Origin: a virus
Virus record (IMG/VR): IMGVR_UViG_3300033153_009399
Coordinates: 1-37,583 of that record
DNA length: 37,583 nt
Strand: one strand, 5' to 3'
The translations under genes and the position numbers were made by a program. Positions 5,613 to 37,583 of the stretch are shown here, one piece after another. The notes beneath the pieces are model-generated. The model was not told the DNA's origin. It made no database searches and worked only from the letters and a program-made list of their open reading frames with translations. Numbering within the stretch: position 1 is the first letter of the stretch; each line of letters opens with the position of its first letter.

Positions 5613-6628
5613 GCAGGTATGTTTTGGTAGGGAAGCAGACCGAAGTCGGGACGATGGACCCCTCGCAGAAGGACGACACCTTCATCTCGTTCCCGATCAA
5701 GGCGAAGCACGGCACGCAGATCGCCCCGACGTCGCACTCGACACTGGTGAAGACCAGGGAGGGCGCGTACGAGGTCATGGGCACCCTTGAGGGCACGATC
5801 GAGCCGGAGGGCATCTTCCCGATACTGCTCGACAACGTCTTCATGGGCGTCCCGACGCATGCACAGCAGGGCGAGACGGCGGCATGGCTGCACACGTGGG
5901 ATGATGACGACGTTGGCAGTACCCTCGACTTCCTGACGCTATTCCGTGAAGAGGACCTGACCGCCCGGAAGATAGACGCGGGGTTCATCAAGAAGCTGAC
6001 TGTCAACTTCCCGGCCCCGAACGCCCCGCTGATGACGTACAGGGCGGAGTTCGAGGGCTCTATCGACAGTCTCGCCGCGCTCGACGGCTCGTACTCTCTC
6101 TCGCCCCTGGCACCATTCTCGTCCCTCGACCAGGTAACGACGAACGGGCACCAGCTGGCCGAGAGCGGAGACTGGACCGACATCATCACGGCGACCCTGG
6201 AGATAACGAACAACGCTCACTGGTCACGGGCCCAGGAGGGCCGGTTCGCCACCGCGGGAAGGCCGGGGCACGTCCGCGTCGGTGGATCCATCACGCAGCG
6301 GTTCGCGAGCACGGACATCGCGAAGCGGTTCTTCGACGGCACGACCGGGAACAGTCAAGCCCAGGCCGGTGGCATCACACCGTTCGACCTCCGGCTAAAG
6401 GTTCAGCAGGGGGTCTTCGCAGCGGACCCGCACTACTACGAATTCTACGCCCGGCTGTTCGCCGCGAAGTGGCCCGAGTCGGACTGGAACGTCGTCCAGC
6501 TCGACGACGTCACCTTCGTCACACCGTTCATCAGCGAGTTCTCGGACGGCGACTCGCTGACGTTCGAGATCGGGCTCCTCAACACCTGGACGGACGACGT
6601 CGGGACGTGGCCGCAGATACCCGCCTGA
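5609..6628 (+). CDS. Major tail tube protein
   Basis: 339 residues, beta-rich throughout, beginning with MSRYVLVGKQTEVGTMDPSQ, the short Gly-containing N-terminal arm usual in siphoviral tube proteins. Two similar halves are suggested by paired motifs (strand-loop segments near residues 50-140 and 185-330), as in duplicated tube folds. It lies just upstream of the chaperone pair and tape measure, the standard order. It is coupled to the upstream gene (ATGA). Family-level assignment is by fold, size and order; no short catalytic motif exists for this protein. Confidence 0.75.
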   Translation: MSRYVLVGKQTEVGTMDPSQKDDTFISFPIKAKHGTQIAPTSHSTLVKTREGAYEVMGTLEGTIEPEGIFPILLDNVFMGVPTHAQQGETAAWLHTWDDDDVGSTLDFLTLFREEDLTARKIDAGFIKKLTVNFPAPNAPLMTYRAEFEGSIDSLAALDGSYSLSPLAPFSSLDQVTTNGHQLAESGDWTDIITATLEITNNAHWSRAQEGRFATAGRPGHVRVGGSITQRFASTDIAKRFFDGTTGNSQAQAGGITPFDLRLKVQQGVFAADPHYYEFYARLFAAKWPESDWNVVQLDDVTFVTPFISEFSDGDSLTFEIGLLNTWTDDVGTWPQIPA

Positions 6629-6669
6629 GAATGACTGACGCTCCCACGAGATAACGGAGGAATACCCCC

Positions 6670-9455: not shown

Positions 9456-11818
9456 AGCAGGGAACGTACGGCGGCAATAATGCTACAGGTCAGGGGATGG
9501 TCGAAGCGGACGGGTTTGTATGCGCTGACACGGCACCTACTGATTTAACTGGGAATTGTTATGCTGGGGATGAATACCTCTACCTCTGTAGGCCGGGAGA
9601 CACCGCATATAACCTCAATGAATGCCGGCCGTGGATCGTCATAACGCTGGACGATGGTATCGCGGATGGCTCGCGTCCGGACATTCTCGATATCCGTCTC
9701 ACACTTGACGGTGATGAACACGCCAACAACCCGAAGTTCTACGTGTACGTGTTAAGTCGGCCGATATATCCGTCGGTAGACGGCACTTACGACCCAAGCG
9801 CGCCAAAGACCGGATCTCCTGGCGGGCCGTCGTGGGATGAACAGGACGTTATGGTTGATATTGCCTGGTCATCCGGAGGGGGAGATTATGAAACGTCTGA
9901 GGCATACAAATATGGGACCGGAATTATCGACGCTCAGATCGGTAGTGCCGGGGATGTAACGATAAATCTTAAGGAGTACGTGAAGAAACACAGCCCCGAA
10001 TGGGGAGACAGCATCTATCTCCTCCTGGTCGCGTATGACCCGGGAGACGCGTCCTGTAGGTTCTTCTCAAAGGAACAGAGCTCTGGCACACGACCGTACG
10101 TGACCGTGAAGCACGTCGACACGCCCCCTGCGAAGCTAACGACTCTCGCGACTATCGGGTCCGACGACTTCGCGGACGCGAACGATGCCTACAAGACGGT
10201 CCCGGAGTTCTCCTGGGATCAGCACGCGTTCGAGGTCGACGTCACGAAGTTCTATATTATCTACAAGGAGAGCAGCGCGCCGAGCGACCCGAGCGACGGG
10301 ACGAAGGCGTACGTCTCGTTCGGGTCTGTCGCATACACCCAGGACATCACCGACTTCGGGATCACCAACTGTCACCTGGTCAACTCCTCCGGCGTACCGA
10401 TCGCGCCAACCGAGGGCACGGACACGTACTATGCGCTGTGCATCGAGGACGAGAACCACACCGGCGCCGACGCGATCATGTCGAACGCGATCATGGTTGA
10501 CCGCCCGGTGAAGCCTGTGGTGCAACTCCAGAAGTACGCGAGTGGTGCGTGGGGCGCAGACGACGACTGGGTCGTGTTCGACCGCGTCCGGATAAGAACG
10601 ACGGCCACCGCTGATGACGTGGCGTTCTTGTACGCATGGGGTGATGGTGAGAAGTCGGACTGGTTAGATGATGCCGCCGAGGACATCGGGACCTACCAGT
10701 ACCGACAGCACACGTATGAGGACACTCAGTATCCCGAGGGCACAGAGATAACGACGGTCAAGGTCTACGCGCTGAATCACCACGGCTTCAGCAGCGATGC
10801 AACCAGCACGACCATCGACGCGGGCGACGAAGGCCACGTCGGGGCTCAGACCGACAGCGTGAGCCCAGGAGTCGATACGGCGTACGTCCCGAGACGGCGC
10901 AGGATGCGATTGTACATCGAGGACATGGTGCTCGGTCGTGCCGGGCTCACTGTTTCGAAGGTGAAGGTGAAGTACACACAGGACACCGGGAGCGGATATC
11001 TGACGATCGGCTCCATAGATCAGAGCGGGTTCGCGAACGTCGGGAACAAGGTGAAGGTGGGCGTACTCTCCAGCTTCACGTCCGGCAGAACATGCCGTAT
11101 CATCGGGCTCGACACGGAGGGAAACATCCAGGAAGAGCAGGTGAACATACCGGACTACACGGACCCGACGACGTACGTGACCTCGACGAACACCTACAGA
11201 CACGTCCTGGCGATCATCGCGGACCACGACGTCCAGGACTTCGAGGTCATCCATGACAGTCCTGGGAGCGGTACCATCGGGACGTTCTTCAGCAGGACGG
11301 GCACTTACATCCAGCTGGATCTCCTGCACTATGTGATGTTCGCGAACGACGCCCTGGCAGCTACGGTATACACACAGCTCGAGGACAGCGATGCAGCGAC
11401 CGTCGAGGGGACGGTCGGTGTGGACGTGGTAGCGGCGACGGTGCTCGACCTGGACGTCGGCGGGGATCTCACGAACACCACCGTCGGCGGCCGTGAGCTA
11501 CCGAACATGGGCCCTGACGCGTCGTACGGCCCGGTCGCTGGCGAGAAGGAGGCGCTCGAAGAACCCTACTATCGTCATTACGGGCTAACGCTCCTCGAGC
11601 TGACGTTCGACGCGAACGACACGACCGACATCACGAAGATAAACCGGTTGCTCGACGGCTATTACGACTGGGCGACGTTCACGATCGACAGCACGGTGTA
11701 CGTTCTATGGCCTGCTGAGGACGCGGGCGCGGCGTACCGCGACGGTACGGCGAAGAATCTGGTAGGGAGCGCACTGTTCCTCGCGAGGCCGAAGGAGGAC
11801 TACATCGATGGGACTTGA
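9452..11818 (+). CDS. Large beta-rich tail protein, possible receptor-binding component
   Basis: 788 residues. The first 220 or so resemble a DNRLRE-type beta-sandwich: paired strands with LDIRLTLDGD, an acidic YETSEAYKYGTG loop, INLKEYVKKHSP and a final RPYVTVKH strand. Several beta-sandwich segments of fibronectin/Ig character follow (around residues 230-340 and 350-450), then an all-beta C-terminus. The GTG at 9452 is chosen: it overlaps the upstream stop and has GGGAGG 11 bases ahead. The 5' 500 bases are visibly AT-richer than the surrounding tail genes, suggesting domain exchange. Distal tail or side-fibre role is inferred from order before the hub. Confidence 0.6.
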   Translation: MKQGTYGGNNATGQGMVEADGFVCADTAPTDLTGNCYAGDEYLYLCRPGDTAYNLNECRPWIVITLDDGIADGSRPDILDIRLTLDGDEHANNPKFYVYVLSRPIYPSVDGTYDPSAPKTGSPGGPSWDEQDVMVDIAWSSGGGDYETSEAYKYGTGIIDAQIGSAGDVTINLKEYVKKHSPEWGDSIYLLLVAYDPGDASCRFFSKEQSSGTRPYVTVKHVDTPPAKLTTLATIGSDDFADANDAYKTVPEFSWDQHAFEVDVTKFYIIYKESSAPSDPSDGTKAYVSFGSVAYTQDITDFGITNCHLVNSSGVPIAPTEGTDTYYALCIEDENHTGADAIMSNAIMVDRPVKPVVQLQKYASGAWGADDDWVVFDRVRIRTTATADDVAFLYAWGDGEKSDWLDDAAEDIGTYQYRQHTYEDTQYPEGTEITTVKVYALNHHGFSSDATSTTIDAGDEGHVGAQTDSVSPGVDTAYVPRRRRMRLYIEDMVLGRAGLTVSKVKVKYTQDTGSGYLTIGSIDQSGFANVGNKVKVGVLSSFTSGRTCRIIGLDTEGNIQEEQVNIPDYTDPTTYVTSTNTYRHVLAIIADHDVQDFEVIHDSPGSGTIGTFFSRTGTYIQLDLLHYVMFANDALAATVYTQLEDSDAATVEGTVGVDVVAATVLDLDVGGDLTNTTVGGRELPNMGPDASYGPVAGEKEALEEPYYRHYGLTLLELTFDANDTTDITKINRLLDGYYDWATFTIDSTVYVLWPAEDAGAAYRDGTAKNLVGSALFLARPKEDYIDGT

Positions 11819-15528: not shown

Positions 15529-16557
15529 ATGAGATACGCGGTCATGGTGTTCGCATCGGCGCTCTTGCTCGTGCTTGTTACGGGCTCGAGCGGGGAAACC
15601 CTCCAGGAGATGGTCGACGGGACCGCTGAGGGTGACACGCTGTATCTGTCGAACGGGACGTACCGCTCACCAGGATACTCGACGTTTCTGAACAGGTCCA
15701 TCACGATACAGGGAACGACGAACGGGACGAGCATTATTACTGGTGACCAAATCGTTACACTTGATTTTTTCGGCGTAAACATTACATTACGAAATCTTGT
15801 TATCGAATCCATGATTGAAGAATCCGGAGCAGTAAGAGCACGGAAGTGTGACAATCTTACAATAGAGAACTGTATCATTCGGGACGTTATGAGTGGGATC
15901 TCTTTCGAGGGAAACGGAACACGTCTTGAAAACCTTACCATCTACTGTGAATACATCGGGGTCATGGCGCGAATCGCCGATGATGTCATCATCCGTAATT
16001 GCACGATCGAGGCGGGAGAGGGTGGATTGGACATCCAGGGACGATCGAACAACCGACTCATCGAAGGGAACACTATCCGTAACGCATCGTATGGTGTAGC
16101 AATCGCGCATGGCGAGAACTATACCATCGTCCGGAACACGATCACCGGGTGCGGTATAGGAATCTACGAGGGAACGCATACCGGCATCCTCCCGAACGGC
16201 CTCATCATCGAGGAGAACCTCATCGAGGGCAACGTCCTCGGGGTGTTCGTCCAGGACGAGAACCTGACCCTCGAGCTGAACGTGACCAACGTCAAGGACC
16301 CCGTGAGCGAGAACGTTATCCTGACGGAATGGAACGCAACGAGCAAGGCGATGGAACCAGTGAACGACGATCCCCCGTACGTACCGCCGCCCGACCCGCC
16401 CGTGGATCCACCGCCCGACCCGGGCCCCGGACCGAACGCCACCGGCAACGGGACGGAGAGCTCATCATCGGACGCCGTGAATTACTCTCCGTTGATAATC
16501 ACCGGCATGATCGGGGCGATCGCCGTGGGTGTGTTGTTCTACCGCCGGAAGTCGTGA
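15529..16557 (+). CDS. Secreted, membrane-anchored right-handed beta-helix (NosD-like) surface protein
   Basis: 342 residues. Signal peptide at about 1-22 (hydrophobic, ending GSSG). Residues 25-265 show right-handed parallel beta-helix repeats of the NosD/CASH type with recurring N-x-[IV]-x-x-N and G-[IV] turns. About 12 N-glycosylation sequons (NGT, NLT, NYT, NVT and others) are present. A Pro/Asp-rich stalk spans about 278-303, and a C-terminal membrane helix near 320-338 is followed by RRKS. Topology implies display on the cell surface with a short cytoplasmic tail. It has its own promoter and lies outside the structural operon; its middle is AT-richer than neighbours. It is probably a lysogenic-conversion or receptor-masking protein acquired from a host. 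Substrate unknown. Confidence 0.75.
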   Translation: MRYAVMVFASALLLVLVTGSSGETLQEMVDGTAEGDTLYLSNGTYRSPGYSTFLNRSITIQGTTNGTSIITGDQIVTLDFFGVNITLRNLVIESMIEESGAVRARKCDNLTIENCIIRDVMSGISFEGNGTRLENLTIYCEYIGVMARIADDVIIRNCTIEAGEGGLDIQGRSNNRLIEGNTIRNASYGVAIAHGENYTIVRNTITGCGIGIYEGTHTGILPNGLIIEENLIEGNVLGVFVQDENLTLELNVTNVKDPVSENVILTEWNATSKAMEPVNDDPPYVPPPDPPVDPPPDPGPGPNATGNGTESSSSDAVNYSPLIITGMIGAIAVGVLFYRRKS

Positions 16558-16849: not shown

Positions 16850-17413
16850 TCACTTCACGGTCGCCTTGGCTTTGCAATTCGGACATATCGCTACTATTGG
16901 ACGCTCATCCGATGTGATGCTAAATTTCGTGCTACATCGGGGGCATGTGAGAACGTTCGGTGATGTCGCCGGCTTGCTTACGGGTAAAATATCCTTGAGG
17001 ATATCTCCCTTCATTTTGAGATATTCTGATTCCGTGATCAGTTCACGCTCTTTCAATGATACCAATTTGTCGAGGACGTCGATCTTCTTCTCGAGGGGTA
17101 CGTCTTCCTGTGGCGGCTTCTCGTATGACCGCCACTGCTCACCCGCTTCGGCGATTTCGATGAGCATCTTCTGGCGTTTGAGGACCGCGTACAATGCCGG
17201 GAACAGGAACGTTAATGTGATGACCCCGACGATCGGCCATACGACCAGCGATATGATAATGATGAACGAAACCCCGGGCTCGTCCATCTGACTCGTGCTA
17301 ATATAGACGAATGCGAACAGGCCTATTAGAATCGCGAACCATACCATGAATGCCTGGTCGATCTCCGATAAAGAGTCGTCCTGCCCCAATCCTCCGAGGT
17401 CGGGATCGCTCAT
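16850..17413 (-). CDS. Membrane protein with SHOCT domain and C-terminal zinc ribbon
   Basis: 187 residues. Acidic N-terminus, membrane segments at about 21-40 and 48-75, then a cytoplasmic region. A SHOCT-type helix pair occurs at about 110-140 (VLDKLVSLKERELITESEYL matches the 'LKeLkeqGlIteeEFe' pattern), followed by a zinc ribbon with Cys at 157, 160, 177 and 180. Its ATG overlaps the stop of the ribbon-helix-helix gene (ATGA on the minus strand), so the two are co-translated from the divergent promoter. The leftward direction and pairing with a regulator suggest a prophage-expressed function such as exclusion or membrane signalling; that is inference. Confidence 0.75.
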   Translation of the reverse strand: MSDPDLGGLGQDDSLSEIDQAFMVWFAILIGLFAFVYISTSQMDEPGVSFIIIISLVVWPIVGVITLTFLFPALYAVLKRQKMLIEIAEAGEQWRSYEKPPQEDVPLEKKIDVLDKLVSLKERELITESEYLKMKGDILKDILPVSKPATSPNVLTCPRCSTKFSITSDERPIVAICPNCKAKATVK

Positions 17414-17592
17414 CCCTCTTCACCCTTCCCGAGGTTCCGGATGGCGATATGGGCCTCATCCTTCTCGAGCCCGTCCGCTAATTTCTGACGGATGTACTCC
17501 TGCCGGGAGAGTTGATCCCCACTGTTGTGCATGACCACATCTATACGCTCTACCATCTTCTCTGTAAGCCGGAGCGTTATATTCACCGACAT
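17410..17592 (-). CDS. Ribbon-helix-helix (CopG-type) regulator
   Basis: 60 residues from the ATG at 17592. The N-terminal strand MSVNITLRLTEKMVERID, turn, and RQEYIRQKLADGLEKD helix are typical of CopG/Arc/MetJ DNA-binding dimers, with the strand SVNITLRL as the DNA-contacting ribbon. An upstream in-frame ATG at 17616 overlaps the TATA region, so the leaderless start at 17592 is preferred: the TATA box at 17618-17628 is about 26-30 bases away. It heads a two-gene minus operon and likely binds the TGACGTA cluster in the divergent region to repress itself and the facing gene. Confidence 0.75.
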   Translation of the reverse strand: MSVNITLRLTEKMVERIDVVMHNSGDQLSRQEYIRQKLADGLEKDEAHIAIRNLGKGEEG

Positions 17593-17632
17593 CCAAAACC
17601 TATGTTTCCACTCCATACTTATACTTTTGTGT
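17593..17632 (-). promoter_or_regulatory. Minus-strand leaderless promoter of the RHH/SHOCT operon
   Basis: On the minus strand AAAAGTATAAG (17628 down to 17618) is a TATA box with its centre about 29 bases before the ATG at 17592. The predicted transcript starts 0-3 bases before the start codon. Confidence 0.6.
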
Positions 17633-17639
17633 ACGCCTG

Positions 17640-17704
17640 TTTACGTCACGAAACACTTATATACACCGGCGTACTATGACGTAACATGACGTATTGGAAC
17701 GTCA
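17640..17704. promoter_or_regulatory. Operator cluster with four TGACGTA-type sites and plus-strand TATA box
   Basis: Sites: TTTACGTCA (17640-17648, inverted), TGACGTAA (17677-17684), TGACGTAT (17687-17694) and AACGTCA (17698-17704, inverted). The two middle copies are 10 bases apart, one helical turn, the usual spacing for cooperative ribbon-helix-helix dimers. The plus-strand TATA box CTTATATA (17656-17663) lies inside the cluster. Binding would block both divergent promoters. This looks like the virus's switch region. Confidence 0.65.
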
Positions 17705-17717
17705 GGGATGCGATGTG

Positions 17718-17861
17718 ATGAGTAAACGCCATGGAATGCAGGTTCATGTTAAGACCTACAAACGTTTCCGCTCCTACTCCTCATTCGCTTCTTTGAGCAA
17801 TAACGAACTGCTCACTACGTTACTGGACGAGCTGGACTCCCTGCGGGGGGGCAGCCAATGA
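17718..17861 (+). CDS. Small ribbon-helix-helix-like protein
   Basis: 47 residues, starting MSKRHGMQVHVKTYKRFRSY. The pattern strand (MQVHVK), TYKRF helix, turn, then LSNNELLTTLLDELDSL helix resembles the minimal CopG/Arc fold ('VxVsxxTyxrlxxla ... sxNExixxLld'). It faces the other RHH gene across the operator cluster, like a Cro/CI-style pair built from two small RHH proteins. It heads the rightward early operon. The ATG at 17718 has only weak upstream pairing. The fold call is from pattern, not alignment. Confidence 0.6.
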   Translation: MSKRHGMQVHVKTYKRFRSYSSFASLSNNELLTTLLDELDSLRGGSQ

Positions 17862-21498: not shown

Positions 21499-21978
21499 AT
21501 GCCCGAGCTCTGCTCGAACTGCGGGACCAAGATGGTGTGCGTCGAGAAGGGCATCTATCGATGCAACAAGTGCTGGCCGAAGAAGGAGACGAACATCGAG
21601 ATATCTGTCGGTGGTAAGAAGGCCGCCGACCTCACGTTCAAACAGATGGAAGAGCTCCCGGGAAGAATAGAGTCCGGCGAGTTCGACCACATCATCAAGA
21701 AGGAGAGAGGTGAGCGTAGCATGGACATCGAACTGGAAGTTATCGAGATCGACACGAAGGAGAAGTCTGACGGATCGAGCGTCACGTACAAGCTGGCGCA
21801 GAAGGTCGGCAAGGACGAGAAGCCCGACTTCAAGATGACCACAGACGAGACCACCGCGAAGGCGTGGAACCTGGAGATGGTCGGCGACGTGATCACGTTC
21901 ACCGTCGGGAAGGTCGAGAAGCAGACGACCCTCGACGAATCTTGGAGGCACAAGAATGATAAGGAGACGACGAGATAG
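21499..21978 (+). CDS. Zinc-ribbon protein with separable C-terminal domain
   Basis: 159 residues. Zinc ribbon at 4-25 (CSNCG, CNKC), a helix-rich linker, then an 85-residue beta domain beginning at an in-frame ATG (21721). GGTGA lies 7 bases before that internal ATG, so the C-terminal domain might also be made alone, as with the protease/scaffold pair. The gene ends 11 bases before the integrase start. Function unknown; possible integrase accessory by position. Confidence 0.6.
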   Translation: MPELCSNCGTKMVCVEKGIYRCNKCWPKKETNIEISVGGKKAADLTFKQMEELPGRIESGEFDHIIKKERGERSMDIELEVIEIDTKEKSDGSSVTYKLAQKVGKDEKPDFKMTTDETTAKAWNLEMVGDVITFTVGKVEKQTTLDESWRHKNDKETTR

Positions 21979-21989
21979 GGAGGTGACAG

Positions 21990-22934
21990 ATGAGGCCGCC
22001 GAGCTTCGGTACGGAGCTGGAGCGGTATCTATCGAGTCTCAGACGCAAGGAGAGGACGCAGAGGCATATAGACGACAGCGCGAGGGTGCTCAGGCACTGC
22101 TTCCGGCTGTTGAAGGAGATCCGGGGAACGCGAACAAAATACCTGCCGCAACCGATCACCATAACGCAGGACGAGCTGATCGAGCTGAAGCACATGATCC
22201 CGGGGGGCCCGGGGAACAAGAAGTACCAGCTCGGCATCATGATGGCGTTCCTGCACAAGTGCGGGAACCCGCTCGACAGACCCTTACTACAACACCACAT
22301 ACCGGACAGGCCGAGGCTCACCATGGACGAGCTCGACTGCATGATGTCATGTCTAAATGGATGGCGGACATTCGAGCAGCATCAGATACGGATCATGGTG
22401 ATGACGGGCCTGCTGACGGCACGTCGAAAGATGGCCCTCGGGATGACACCCGGAGACATCCACCCGACCTACATCCGGGGGATCGACAAGGGCCCCGGCG
22501 GAGGACGGGAACGTGTGATCCCGATCAACCCGGAGATCTTCGACGAGTACCAGGAGTTCCTCGAACACCGTCGTCAGGTGATCCGGTCGGTGAAGCAGAT
22601 TTCACCGGATGCGCCGATCCCGGACAAGCTGTTCATCTGGACGAAGTACGAGCGGAAAAAAATGGGGAACCTGACGCGGTCGTCTCTGGAGAACAGGATG
22701 CACACGCTCTCGGACGAGCTCGGGTTCCGCGTGACCTTCCACATGCTCCGGAGAGCGGGGTGCGAGATGCTCATCAGAAACGGGACACCTGTCCCGGTGG
22801 CGATGAGGATCAGCGACCACTCGACGGAAGCGGTGTTCCGCCACTACGTCGGCGAGCTCGAAGATCTCGCACGGGACGCGGTGCGCGACAGCATCTATCA
22901 ACCTCTGATAGCTCCGAAGATGAGAAGAGTCTGA
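21990..22934 (+). CDS. int: Tyrosine recombinase (integrase)
   Basis: 314 residues. An N-terminal SAM-like core-binding region (about 1-105) precedes a catalytic domain with the full active-site set: Arg in TGLLTARRKMALG (R145/146), the beta-hairpin Lys at about 167, HMLRR (H251, R254), ISDHSTEAVFRHY (H277) and the nucleophile Tyr286. It would catalyse site-specific integration of the circular genome into the host chromosome. GGGAGGTGAC precedes the ATG. A structured intergenic element follows the gene, the usual place for the attachment site. No excisionase is evident among the recognisable genes. Confidence 0.9.
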   Translation: MRPPSFGTELERYLSSLRRKERTQRHIDDSARVLRHCFRLLKEIRGTRTKYLPQPITITQDELIELKHMIPGGPGNKKYQLGIMMAFLHKCGNPLDRPLLQHHIPDRPRLTMDELDCMMSCLNGWRTFEQHQIRIMVMTGLLTARRKMALGMTPGDIHPTYIRGIDKGPGGGRERVIPINPEIFDEYQEFLEHRRQVIRSVKQISPDAPIPDKLFIWTKYERKKMGNLTRSSLENRMHTLSDELGFRVTFHMLRRAGCEMLIRNGTPVPVAMRISDHSTEAVFRHYVGELEDLARDAVRDSIYQPLIAPKMRRV

Positions 22935-22954
22935 AGGCTGCGAATAGAGCCGAG

Positions 22955-23044
22955 AAGTGCTACTACGCGAAACGCCAGACAACGAGTGGGCCCGGCCGGA
23001 TTCGGTCCTACTATACCCCCTGGCTCATCCCGGGAGTAGCACTT
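22955..23044. other. Structured element after the integrase; attachment-site or RNA candidate
   Basis: AAGTGCTACT (22955-22964) and AGTAGCACTT (23035-23044) are perfect 10-base inverted repeats enclosing 70 bases, with a nested CCCGG (22991-22995)/CCGGG (23030-23034) pair and a short T-run (TTTTT) at the right edge. It fills most of the 193-base gap between the integrase and the next gene and contains no credible ORF. Possible roles: attP core with arm sites, a terminator, or a structured RNA. I see no tRNA 3' end in it. Confidence 0.5.
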
Positions 23045-23127
23045 TTTGGTACTACCGTTGATCCAGTCGTCGCAAACGACGGGATCAGCGAACGCTCTTT
23101 TGATGCACTGAGAGCGGGGGTGCGTTG

Positions 23128-23385
23128 GTGAACGGCCTCGATTTCCTGATGCACGATTACGTTCAGATTCCCATTACGAAACTGGGAGAGTTCTTCGGGG
23201 TGAAGGTCATCACGGTAGGAGGGCTCGCGCTCCCTCGGATGCTCCCGGTCTGCCGACGGTGCGGAGAGGACGCCGACACCGACCACGACCTGACGACTGG
23301 AGAGATGACGACCTACTGCCGGAAGTGCCGGATCTTTATCACGCTCACCAGAGATGAGATAGAAGTCCTTGTGGGGGGATCCTGA
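23128..23385 (+). CDS. Zinc-ribbon protein
   Basis: 85 residues. An N-terminal hydrophobic/beta segment (YVQIPITKLGEFFGVKVITV) is followed by CRRCGEDADTDHD and YCRKC, a four-Cys ribbon, and a helical end. The GTG at 23128 is chosen over the TTG at 23125 because GGGGGTG is 5 bases ahead of it. First gene after the integrase gap. Function unknown. Confidence 0.6.
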   Translation: MNGLDFLMHDYVQIPITKLGEFFGVKVITVGGLALPRMLPVCRRCGEDADTDHDLTTGEMTTYCRKCRIFITLTRDEIEVLVGGS

Positions 23386-23639: not shown

Positions 23640-24046
23640 AGAAGTTCGTCAAGCCCTTCACCTACGCGCCGAAGATCCCGGCGGTCCTCGACGGACGGTG
23701 TACTCAGACCATCCGCCCGATCAAGACGAACGACATGGACAAGATACCCATCTGGGATGACCAGATACTCTTCCACGGCTGGGAAGGGAAGCCGTACCGC
23801 TCGAAATGGTCGTGGCGTCTCCGGGTCGAGGTCGAGACGTTCCTCATCCTGAAATTGAAAAAGACCGGACTGACGGATACCGCGAATGGCAAGTTCTATC
23901 CGTGGGCCCATCCGAAGCTCACGTACCTGGCCGAGCTCGACTTCATCGAGCCGCCGACGGGTGAAGCACTCGGGGAACTCCTCCTCGGATGGTACGACCC
24001 CGGTCAGTTCCTTCAGGTGATCCGCTTCAAGGAGGTGGACGCCTGA
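23636..24046 (+). CDS. ASCH/PUA-like domain protein
   Basis: 136 residues from TTG 23636 (TTGA overlap). The N-terminal PAVLDGRCTQTIRPIK matches the ASCH signature 'i..GkKtqTiR', followed by strands IPIWDDQILFHGWEGKPY and a long SW(K)RLRVEV strand, as in the ASCH beta-barrel. ASCH domains bind RNA or nucleotides and are common as small phage genes. It immediately precedes the iteron-like cluster. Specific ligand unknown. Confidence 0.65.
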   Translation: MKKFVKPFTYAPKIPAVLDGRCTQTIRPIKTNDMDKIPIWDDQILFHGWEGKPYRSKWSWRLRVEVETFLILKLKKTGLTDTANGKFYPWAHPKLTYLAELDFIEPPTGEALGELLLGWYDPGQFLQVIRFKEVDA

Positions 24047-24050
24047 GCAT

Positions 24051-24129
24051 TGTAACTATCAAGGATGTAACTATCAAGGCAGATTGTAACTGTCATGGCA
24101 ATTCATGTAACCTTTTCTGTAACAATAGG
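24051..24129. repeat. Iteron-like TGTAAC repeats ahead of the winged-helix gene
   Basis: Five same-strand copies begin with TGTAAC: 24051-24064 and 24066-24079 (identical 14-mers TGTAACTATCAAGG), 24085-24098 (TGTAACTGTCATGG), 24106-24119 and 24118-24129 (core only). A sixth, TGTAACTATCACGA, lies at 24396-24409 inside the gene next to a hairpin. They fill the 100-base gap before a winged-helix protein gene. Direct repeats beside a DNA-binding protein gene are typical of replication-initiator binding sites or of autoregulatory operators. Confidence 0.7.
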
Positions 24130-24146
24130 GGGGTGGAAGCATCGCC

Positions 24147-25160
24147 GTGAAGGACGACGTCTTCCGGCTCATCGTCCCCCCGAACATGTTCCTGCAGAAG
24201 CAGATCTCGGACATGCTCAGGATATCGAAGCGGATGGTTTCGTACTACGTCCAGGAGCTCCTGAAGGACGGGTGGATACGCCCGATCGCGAGACGTTCGG
24301 ACGCCGAGGAGAAGATCAGGCTGCTCCTCCCGGGCGTCAAGTACAGCAAGCGAATGAAGTTCTACGAAAGGGGCCGAAACGCCCCGAAAGATGATTGTAA
24401 CTATCACGACGTGGGGGACGGGACGAAGTCCCGTGCGATACGTGTCCACAACCACGCGTTCAAGTACAAGATCACGGAGACGGGAAACGTCGAATGGGAC
24501 TCGGAGTACGACCTCAAGGACACGAAGGTAAGCCAGAAGAAATTGAAGTTCGGAGAGGTGAACGTCTTCGTGAGGAAGTACGGCAACAAGACGATGGTCG
24601 CGTACCTGCCGATAGAGTTCGTGAGCGCGCCGACGTTGGAGCAGTGCCTGAAGGACCGGGACGACGTCGCGTTCCAGCTGAAGAATTACATCGAGAAGCG
24701 CTGGGGCTTCCGGCTCGGCATGCCGATGGAAGTGTCCAAGCACCTCGGCGTGCTGACGCACTCGAAGGCGTTGGCCGAAGAGGTCCGGGGATCACCGGAC
24801 AAGATCACGACGGACGGCGGGTGGATCGACGACAGCCTGGGCACAGCGAAGGACGGCATCGTCGAGGTGGAGAGCGAGGACCCGAGGATAGCCGATCTGG
24901 TCGCGAGGGCCCCGCGCTCGTTGCTCGACATCAAAGACGAGGTGATGCTGACCCAGGACATGGTCCTCGAAGTACGGAAAAAGGTGGAGGTGGTGGAGGT
25001 CGACCTCGAGGCGATCAAGAACGGGTGGCAGGACCTCCCGGAGATATCACGGTCACTCTCGAGAGTATCGAGATCATTGAATCGTATCGGCGACGAGCTG
25101 AAGCACCCACAGCTGACGTTCGATCCTGGTGAGCGCGAGACGTTGGAGGGATACCAATGA
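24147..25160 (+). CDS. Winged-helix DNA-binding protein, replication initiator candidate
   Basis: 337 residues. A winged-helix segment at about 10-50 (FLQKQISDMLRISKRMVSYY, recognition helix VSYYVQELLKDG) opens the protein. A basic, beta-rich central domain follows (about 90-160, RVHNHAFKYKITETGN...) with RWGFRLGMPMEVSKHL after it. The C-terminus from about 270 is coiled coil (VLEVRKKVEVVEVDLEAIKN). Iteron-like repeats lie immediately upstream and one copy inside. No Rep HUH or polymerase motif is visible. It may bind the repeats to start replication with host enzymes, or be a repressor. GTG start with GGGGGGTGG upstream. Confidence 0.6.
   Translation: MKDDVFRLIVPPNMFLQKQISDMLRISKRMVSYYVQELLKDGWIRPIARRSDAEEKIRLLLPGVKYSKRMKFYERGRNAPKDDCNYHDVGDGTKSRAIRVHNHAFKYKITETGNVEWDSEYDLKDTKVSQKKLKFGEVNVFVRKYGNKTMVAYLPIEFVSAPTLEQCLKDRDDVAFQLKNYIEKRWGFRLGMPMEVSKHLGVLTHSKALAEEVRGSPDKITTDGGWIDDSLGTAKDGIVEVESEDPRIADLVARAPRSLLDIKDEVMLTQDMVLEVRKKVEVVEVDLEAIKNGWQDLPEISRSLSRVSRSLNRIGDELKHPQLTFDPGERETLEGYQ
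24370..24409. promoter_or_regulatory. Hairpin plus sixth TGTAAC repeat inside the winged-helix gene
   Basis: GGGGC (24370-24374)/GCCCC (24381-24385) forms a short hairpin 11 bases before TGTAACTATCACGA (24396-24409). The repeat matches the upstream iteron consensus at 11 of 14 positions. Coding constraint does not explain conservation of this DNA motif. Confidence 0.4.
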
Positions 25161-25999
25161 GTCCCCCCGACGGAACCTTAATGAACACCGATAATATTCG
25201 TACAATGGGGGAGCGCGCCGGTGATAGGTGCGCGGGTTTGACTCCATCTTACCCGCGAACCTCCCAGGCCGGTGTATCTCCCTCACCCTTAACTCTCCCC
25301 GCATGGTGGAAACGCCAGGAACCGTACGCTATCGGTGACTGTCTCGAATTGATGAAGGACATTCCCGATAAGTCGATCGATCTCATATTAACAGACCCCC
25401 CTTATTCTACTCCCGTTATTACTGCCATCGGCCGGGAACTATGCAAGAATTTTGCCGACCTATCTGTTCAGAAACAATATTGTAGAGACCTCCGTGTGGA
25501 ATGGGAAAGGGTATTACGGAAAGGTGGTTCCGCTTTCGTATTCTGCGACGCAAGGTATTACCCCGTGCTGTTCGAGTCGTTTTATCCATGGATAACATCT
25601 CATCTTGTCATTTGGGATAAAGGGCGAATAGGTCTGGGTGGGGCCTTTCGCCATCAATATGAATGTATTTTCTTCACCTCACCGTTTAGTGGAGTCAAAC
25701 CGATAGACGATAAAACGTATGCGGATATCATTCGGTGTTCGCCAATACCGCCGCAACAGCGATCACATGGCGCAGAAAAACCCGGCGAATTACTTGAACT
25801 ATTAATCAATGGGTTCTGCCGGGTCGGCGGAGTCGTATTAGATCCGTTCCTCGGGTCTGGAAGTACTCTACTCGCATGTCGTAAAACCGCCAGGGTCGGG
25901 ATAGGATACGAATTGAATCCGGAATATGAATCAACCATCCGCAAACGGATATTGGCCGACACCCCCCCAATAGAAAAATACGGGGGTGACGCGCCATAA
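25157..25999 (+). CDS. DNA methyltransferase (N6-adenine/N4-cytosine, beta-type order)
   Basis: 280 residues. Motif IV DPPY at 80-83 comes before motif I DPFLGSGST at 229-237 (then GYELNPEY at 250-257), the order of beta-class N4/N6 methyltransferases of the PF01555 family. It would methylate a short DNA site to protect viral DNA or mark it. The first 48 residues are poorly structured and may not be translated: the catalytic domain begins near WWKRQEPYAIGDCLELMK, and a TATA-like ATAATATT lies at 25190. No partner restriction enzyme is present, so it is an orphan. The body is clearly AT-richer than its neighbours, a sign of recent acquisition. Confidence 0.85.
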   Translation: MSPPDGTLMNTDNIRTMGERAGDRCAGLTPSYPRTSQAGVSPSPLTLPAWWKRQEPYAIGDCLELMKDIPDKSIDLILTDPPYSTPVITAIGRELCKNFADLSVQKQYCRDLRVEWERVLRKGGSAFVFCDARYYPVLFESFYPWITSHLVIWDKGRIGLGGAFRHQYECIFFTSPFSGVKPIDDKTYADIIRCSPIPPQQRSHGAEKPGELLELLINGFCRVGGVVLDPFLGSGSTLLACRKTARVGIGYELNPEYESTIRKRILADTPPIEKYGGDAP

Positions 26000-34889: not shown

Positions 34890-34927
34890 ACAACTTTATA
34901 TCGAGAGTCGGAACATGATTATTGTCG
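34890..34927 (+). promoter_or_regulatory. Late promoter for the portal operon (copy 2 of a twin promoter)
   Basis: ACAACTTTATATCGAGAGTC (34890-34909) is identical to 36-55, and the TGTCG before the start codon is also the same. TATA (TTTATAT) begins at 34895, 33 bases before GTG 34928, exactly as TATA 41 is 33 bases before ATG 74. The shared spacing indicates one regulatory unit controlling both late operons and fixes the portal start. Confidence 0.75.
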
Positions 34928-37313: not shown

Positions 37314-37535
37314 ATGGGACGTGTGAAAAAATTCAGGCTCGATCCGGACGTGATATTTATCATCAGACATTACCGCGGATCGGGGGTGTCTTTCGAACGT
37401 ATCACAGACCGTCTGGCCGCCTACTTCGGAGAGCGTCCGAACACGAGGACCGTAAGGTACATGCACGACGAGATAATGGCCCGAAAAGGGCTGAAACCGC
37501 GCCGACAACTTTATATCGAGAGTCCGGAAATTTAA
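37314..37535 (+). CDS. Small helix-turn-helix-like protein
   Basis: 73 residues starting MGRVKKFRLDPDVIFIIRHY. The centre (SFERITDRLAAYFGERPNTR followed by TVRYMHDEIMARKGL) fits an HTH. The gene crosses the end of the linear representation and finishes at base 66; its 3' end encodes QLYIES with the same bases that form the late TATA box. ATG 37314 is used. Possible late regulator or head-associated protein; position between head genes and the protease is the only hint. Confidence 0.6.
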   Translation: MGRVKKFRLDPDVIFIIRHYRGSGVSFERITDRLAAYFGERPNTRTVRYMHDEIMARKGLKPRRQLYIESPEI

Positions 37536-37583
37536 TCTGTCGATGCCTGGTATCGACGAGAAAGAGACCGAGTTCAAGGTCCG
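37470..37583. repeat. Terminal direct repeat, right copy
   Basis: Identical to bases 1-114; see the left copy. It includes the late promoter (37505-37543) and the first codons of the protease gene, so the window wraps onto itself. Confidence 0.97.
37505..37542 (+). promoter_or_regulatory. Right-hand copy of the protease-operon late promoter
   Basis: Same bases as 36-73 by the terminal repeat; on the circular molecule this is one promoter. Confidence 0.75.

Follow-up and report, generated by a model that had tools for sequence, protein, structure and literature searches.

A dense cluster of TGTAAC repeats was identified immediately upstream of a winged-helix gene in the virus record IMGVR_UViG_3300033153_009399, which at its full length of 37,583 nt forms the window analyzed here. 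We tentatively read these repeats as iteron-type sites for the protein encoded next to them, most likely within a replication origin of the lambda-O/Rep type. This reading, to which we give slightly less than even weight, is favored over an autoregulatory operator, which we regard as a genuine but lesser possibility. An origin with the winged-helix protein as its initiator had been proposed in an earlier note on this DNA. The repeats, the AT-rich gap around them, a further copy within the gene, and the lack of recognized replication genes support that proposal, whereas the GC skew points elsewhere and the protein is not recognizable as an initiator.

Within the whole window, TGTAAC starts at positions 24051, 24066, 24085, 24106, 24118, and 24396, and otherwise only at 9955, 20691, and 30565. 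The five direct repeats reported earlier were confirmed, but they span 73 bp (24051–24123) and not 79. Five copies in 80 bp represent the densest cluster of any single hexamer in the window; in 100 simulated genomes, the densest hexamer cluster held three copies (83 runs) or four (17 runs), and none reached five. Additionally, the 11-mer TGTAACTATCA occurs three times against 0.0013 occurrences expected under a dinucleotide model. The cluster is beyond chance, and same-orientation direct repeats of the kind found in iteron origins are present. Three of the array copies reach 14–15 nt, all in one orientation on the plus strand and identical in the relative described below: copy 1 (TTGTAACTATCAAGG, 24050–24064), copy 2 (ATGTAACTATCAAGG, 24065–24079), and copy 3 (TTGTAACTGTCATGG, 24084–24098). 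Together with the sixth copy, they share a TTGTAACTATCA-like core in the same orientation. Copies 4 (ATGTAAC only, 24105–24111) and 5 (TGTAAC only, 24118–24123), also on the plus strand, are degenerate and consist of the hexamer, in copy 4 with the preceding A. The spacing within the array (15, 19, 21, and 12 bp) is irregular and shows no helical phasing. Regular repeat spacing is found in many iteron origins, although not in all, so the irregularity weakens an iteron origin without excluding it.

The array is located in an AT-rich intergenic gap (24047–24146), which corresponds to the adjacent AT-rich region expected of an iteron origin. The GC minimum over 80 bp in this gap is 34–35% in a genome mostly at 50–65% GC, and the 80-bp segment 24047–24126 (35% GC) ranks about 64th of 37,389 for AT-richness. 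Judging by sequence, the winged-helix gene probably uses GGGGGGTGG (24128–24136, plus strand) as its ribosome-binding site. In the array gap, no archaeal TATA box stood out clearly from background, unlike in the promoter-type gaps at 34.9, 37.5, 15.5, 16.6, and 17.66 kb, where one is present. Copies 1 and 2 lie at most two mismatches from the TATA consensus, a distance equaled or bettered by about a third of background stretches, so that a weak promoter in the gap is conceivable. No convincing match to host origin-recognition boxes was observed.

The lack of a clear TATA box weakens a plain promoter-operator reading, in which the winged-helix protein would be a transcription factor that, bound to the array, regulates its own gene together with the early genes downstream, with the in-gene site serving as an auxiliary operator or roadblock. 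This remains a plausible second explanation, perhaps one chance in three. It is consistent with the MarR/HTH_24-type winged helix, with the placement of the repeats directly upstream of the protein's own gene, and with an integrase gene (21990–22934) shortly upstream of the array, a place common for control genes. However, the sites are direct repeats and not palindromes, and dimeric MarR-type regulators usually bind palindromes. Operator and origin roles may also coexist and are not exclusive, since plasmid initiators such as RepE of the F plasmid are reported to autoregulate as well (PMC13028717).

The sixth copy (TTGTAACTATCACGA, 24395–24409, plus strand), with its TGTAAC at 24396, is a near-full copy inside the winged-helix gene, 270 bp beyond the array; a sixth repeat within the gene and beside a hairpin had been reported previously, and both are present. 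It is read in frame as D-C-N-Y-H (GAT-TGT-AAC-TAT-CAC). Three of these five codons end in T in a gene with a GC3 of 0.85, which mildly suggests that the copy has been kept at the level of the DNA itself. The 88-nt stretch holding the copy is identical in the relative; as 27% of 88-bp windows show the same degree of conservation, this conservation is not claimed as proof of a cis element. The neighboring GC hairpin, ACGGGAC-GAA-GTCCCGT (24418–24434, plus strand, inside the gene), does exist, but at chance level: hairpins with a stem of 7 or more number 17 in the window against 9–31 in shuffles, and the local fold, computed as DNA, has a z of −1.15. It adds nothing to the case for an origin, and a rolling-circle origin at this position was rejected as unsupported given the chance number of such hairpins. 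A small hairpin, GGGGC-CGAAAC-GCCCC (24370–24385, plus strand), lies upstream of copy 6, with no demonstrated excess over chance.

The in-gene copy also bears on an improbable reading in which the repeats serve some other role or roles, for example in packaging, as binding sites of host proteins, or in controlling the winged-helix gene at the RNA level, and the encoded protein has no dedicated role there. The ribosome-binding site directly after the array would fit such a role. A near-full copy within the coding part of the neighboring gene nevertheless suggests a connection between the protein and the sites.

The winged-helix gene (24147–25160, plus strand) encodes a 337-residue protein, a candidate initiator or regulator with an N-terminal winged helix at about residues 13–52. 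The central domain is predicted with low confidence to comprise antiparallel strands and a helix, and the C-terminal part is predicted to be helical. Structure prediction yielded a pLDDT of 30 for the full protein; the central-domain model, in which a TBP-like catalytic fold was considered, reached a pLDDT of 60 and gave no confident fold match. In Pfam, HTH_24 (21.1 bits, cut-off 21.9) and MarR_2 (18.8, cut-off 27) both scored below their cut-offs, and no significant match was found beyond such generic winged-helix models. No relatives of the protein were identified in genome_contigs, phages, plasmids, or PDB sequences, and viral_contigs contained one record; searches of Asgard genomes returned only generic winged-helix matches and chance-level matches. 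Directly downstream, an N6/N4 DNA methyltransferase gene (25157–25999) is probably a later, recent arrival outside the array system, as it is absent from the relative and has a GC3 of 0.48 against about 0.8 elsewhere.

In lambdoid phages, gene O contains the origin, made up of an AT-rich tract and iterons bound by O; the lambda iterons are all inside the gene, and each is an inverted repeat (PMC7466680). The present locus resembles lambda O/ori-lambda in its direct-repeat sites, AT-rich tract, gene for a putative DNA-binding initiator, in-gene site, and apparent need for host machinery. It differs in that most copies are located upstream, non-palindromic, and irregularly spaced. The protein shows no significant similarity to lambda O, and no significant profile match places it in the O family; its best replication match, phrog_678 (E 0.03), is insignificant and covers the winged helix only. 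In mycobacteriophage Miko, RepA, which has an N-terminal HTH, together with 171 bp of upstream sequence is enough for replication (PMC7157519). Initiators of iteron plasmids and phage-plasmids (the Rep_3 family, P1-type RepA, and Miko RepA) are comparable to the candidate as HTH initiators of about 320–350 residues with repeats or an origin just upstream or in the gene. No sequence relationship to them was detected, however, and a six-frame search of G000 and G001 gave no match to PF01051 (Rep_3) in this genome.

In Rep-Arvir initiators, described only in 2026, the catalytic domain, which has a conserved tyrosine, is N-terminal and the winged helix is C-terminal, and a hairpin origin lies downstream (PMC13107129). 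With this group (RepSNJ2, PF25227/DUF7845) the locus shares a winged-helix protein in a likely archaeal virus without other replication genes and a nearby conserved cis element. Here, in contrast, the winged helix is at the N terminus, the hairpin is at chance level, and PF25227 is absent among the Pfam matches of the protein up to E 10, with HMMER filters applied. MarR/HTH_24 regulators resemble the protein at residues 13–52, whereas the protein is extended by long central and C-terminal regions, lacks a palindromic operator, and scores below the Pfam cut-offs. By sequence, it does not belong to the O-like, Rep_3, or Rep-Arvir families.

Among the open reading frames scanned, which were part of the total, no convincing model match to a polymerase, helicase, or primase was recognized; the claim of the earlier note that the genome has no polymerase or helicase holds to this extent. 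Pfam searches of the open reading frames scanned, again a subset, recognized no ParA, TubZ, or other partition NTPase. This counts against the repeats being a partition or DNA-organizing site, that is, a centromere bound by a winged-helix protein in a TubR-like role. Direct repeats arrayed in front of a winged-helix gene would suit such a site, as would the C-terminal region predicted, at low confidence, to be helical. With an integrase present, stable inheritance need not use partition, and we consider this explanation very unlikely.

The expectation that the GC-skew minimum would fall at the array was not borne out by this indirect test. The detrended cumulative minimum falls at 18.07 kb of the window, not at 24 kb, and that of the relative, at 13.8 kb, lies near the same locus; the amplitude had a p of 0.05 in the window and 0.015 in the relative under block shuffling. 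This position counts mildly against an origin at 24 kb, and only mildly because module composition differs and a minus-strand cluster lies at the minimum.

In viral_contigs, IMGVR_UViG_3300033155_001544 was the only record found with the gene, encoding a protein 92% identical, and the terminase, capsid, and integrase also matched that record only. All six repeats are present in this relative in register, and the region 24040–24229 differs by one base. The array gap is 99% identical, against 76–96% in other alignable gaps, and is the best conserved of those checked. The single relative keeps both repeats and gene. It is, however, so closely related that the test has little power: aligned parts of the two genomes are on average 94% identical, and 25% of 190-bp windows match the array region in conservation, which makes this weak evidence for selection.

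A different pattern was observed at 17.4–17.9 kb, where two divergent genes, 17410–17616 (minus strand; weak RHH_1 match, E 0.015) and 17718–17861 (plus strand; weaker RHH match), flank a TATA box near 17656 and TGACGTA repeats. From their sequences, these ribbon-helix-helix genes likely form a regulatory switch. In the relative, this locus encodes different small proteins, also divergent and RHH by eye, so that the pair is replaced as in an exchanged immunity region. Since the array and the winged-helix gene are kept while the RHH-like switch is exchanged, a core function is more likely for the array than one in immunity, and the existence of this separate switch-like locus speaks against the operator.

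Used as a DNA query against plasmids and phages, the array gave only weak and uninformative matches. Pattern scans for TGTAACT arrays returned mostly repeats in coding sequence or unrelated arrays, and no protein homolog; in other virus records, replication genes were not regular neighbors of TGTAACT arrays. In one unrelated phage record (G229), TGTAACT[AG]TCA repeats lie directly upstream of a Rep_3-like gene. This parallel is suggestive but anecdotal, as the record was selected by its repeat pattern and such neighbors are missing at other arrays. Long regular arrays of the TGTAACTAT type, with 27-bp and 24-bp periods, were observed in the unrelated records L184 (reverse strand, 6293–6638) and L142 (14207–14333), and a winged-helix-like ORF lies close to the L184 array. 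A literature search on TGTAACTATC returned no title on iterons or origins.

Profile matches to a Mu-like gpT capsid protein, a minor tail protein, a terminase, and a portal identify the virus as tailed, and the integrase gene suggests that it is temperate. In the integrase region, the longest ORF (21956–23131) is in the wrong frame, and the overlapping ORF 21990–22934 is the integrase. No tRNA-type integration site was found. An exact terminal repeat of 114 bp (1–114 = 37470–37583) indicates that the record is probably complete. The relative also carries a 114-bp terminal repeat, located at another genome position; probably neither marks a fixed end, and both stem from the assembly of circular sequence. 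Strong TATA-type elements and weak matches to archaeal domains make an archaeal host likely. The TATA-type element AACTTTATATCGAGAGTC occurs twice, and TTTAATAT and CTTATATA sit in other gaps. The promoter-like AACTTTATATCGAGAGTC is identical at 38–55, 34892–34909, and 37507–37524, the first and last being one site within the terminal repeat, and precedes two structural-gene groups. Furthermore, the product of 15529–16557 is predicted to be a secreted beta-helix (NosD-like) protein, which ends in a hydrophobic anchor and, after it, basic residues.

In the favored lambda-O/Rep-like origin, the N-terminal winged helix of the protein would bind both the upstream array and the site within the gene, and the protein would open the AT-rich gap. 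It would then recruit the replicative helicase and polymerase of the host, neither of which was recognized in the virus, and replication would start. It is conceivable, although less likely than not, that the protein founds an unrecognized initiator family in tailed archaeal viruses, with an iteron origin split between gap and gene; if so, a virus without other replication genes could use the host replisome. How genome copying starts in archaeal viruses without recognizable replication genes is largely open, and the candidate is compact, comprising 100 bp and one gene. If the origin reading is right, the protein would stand for a new class among viral initiators, and the locus might serve as a vector origin in archaea.
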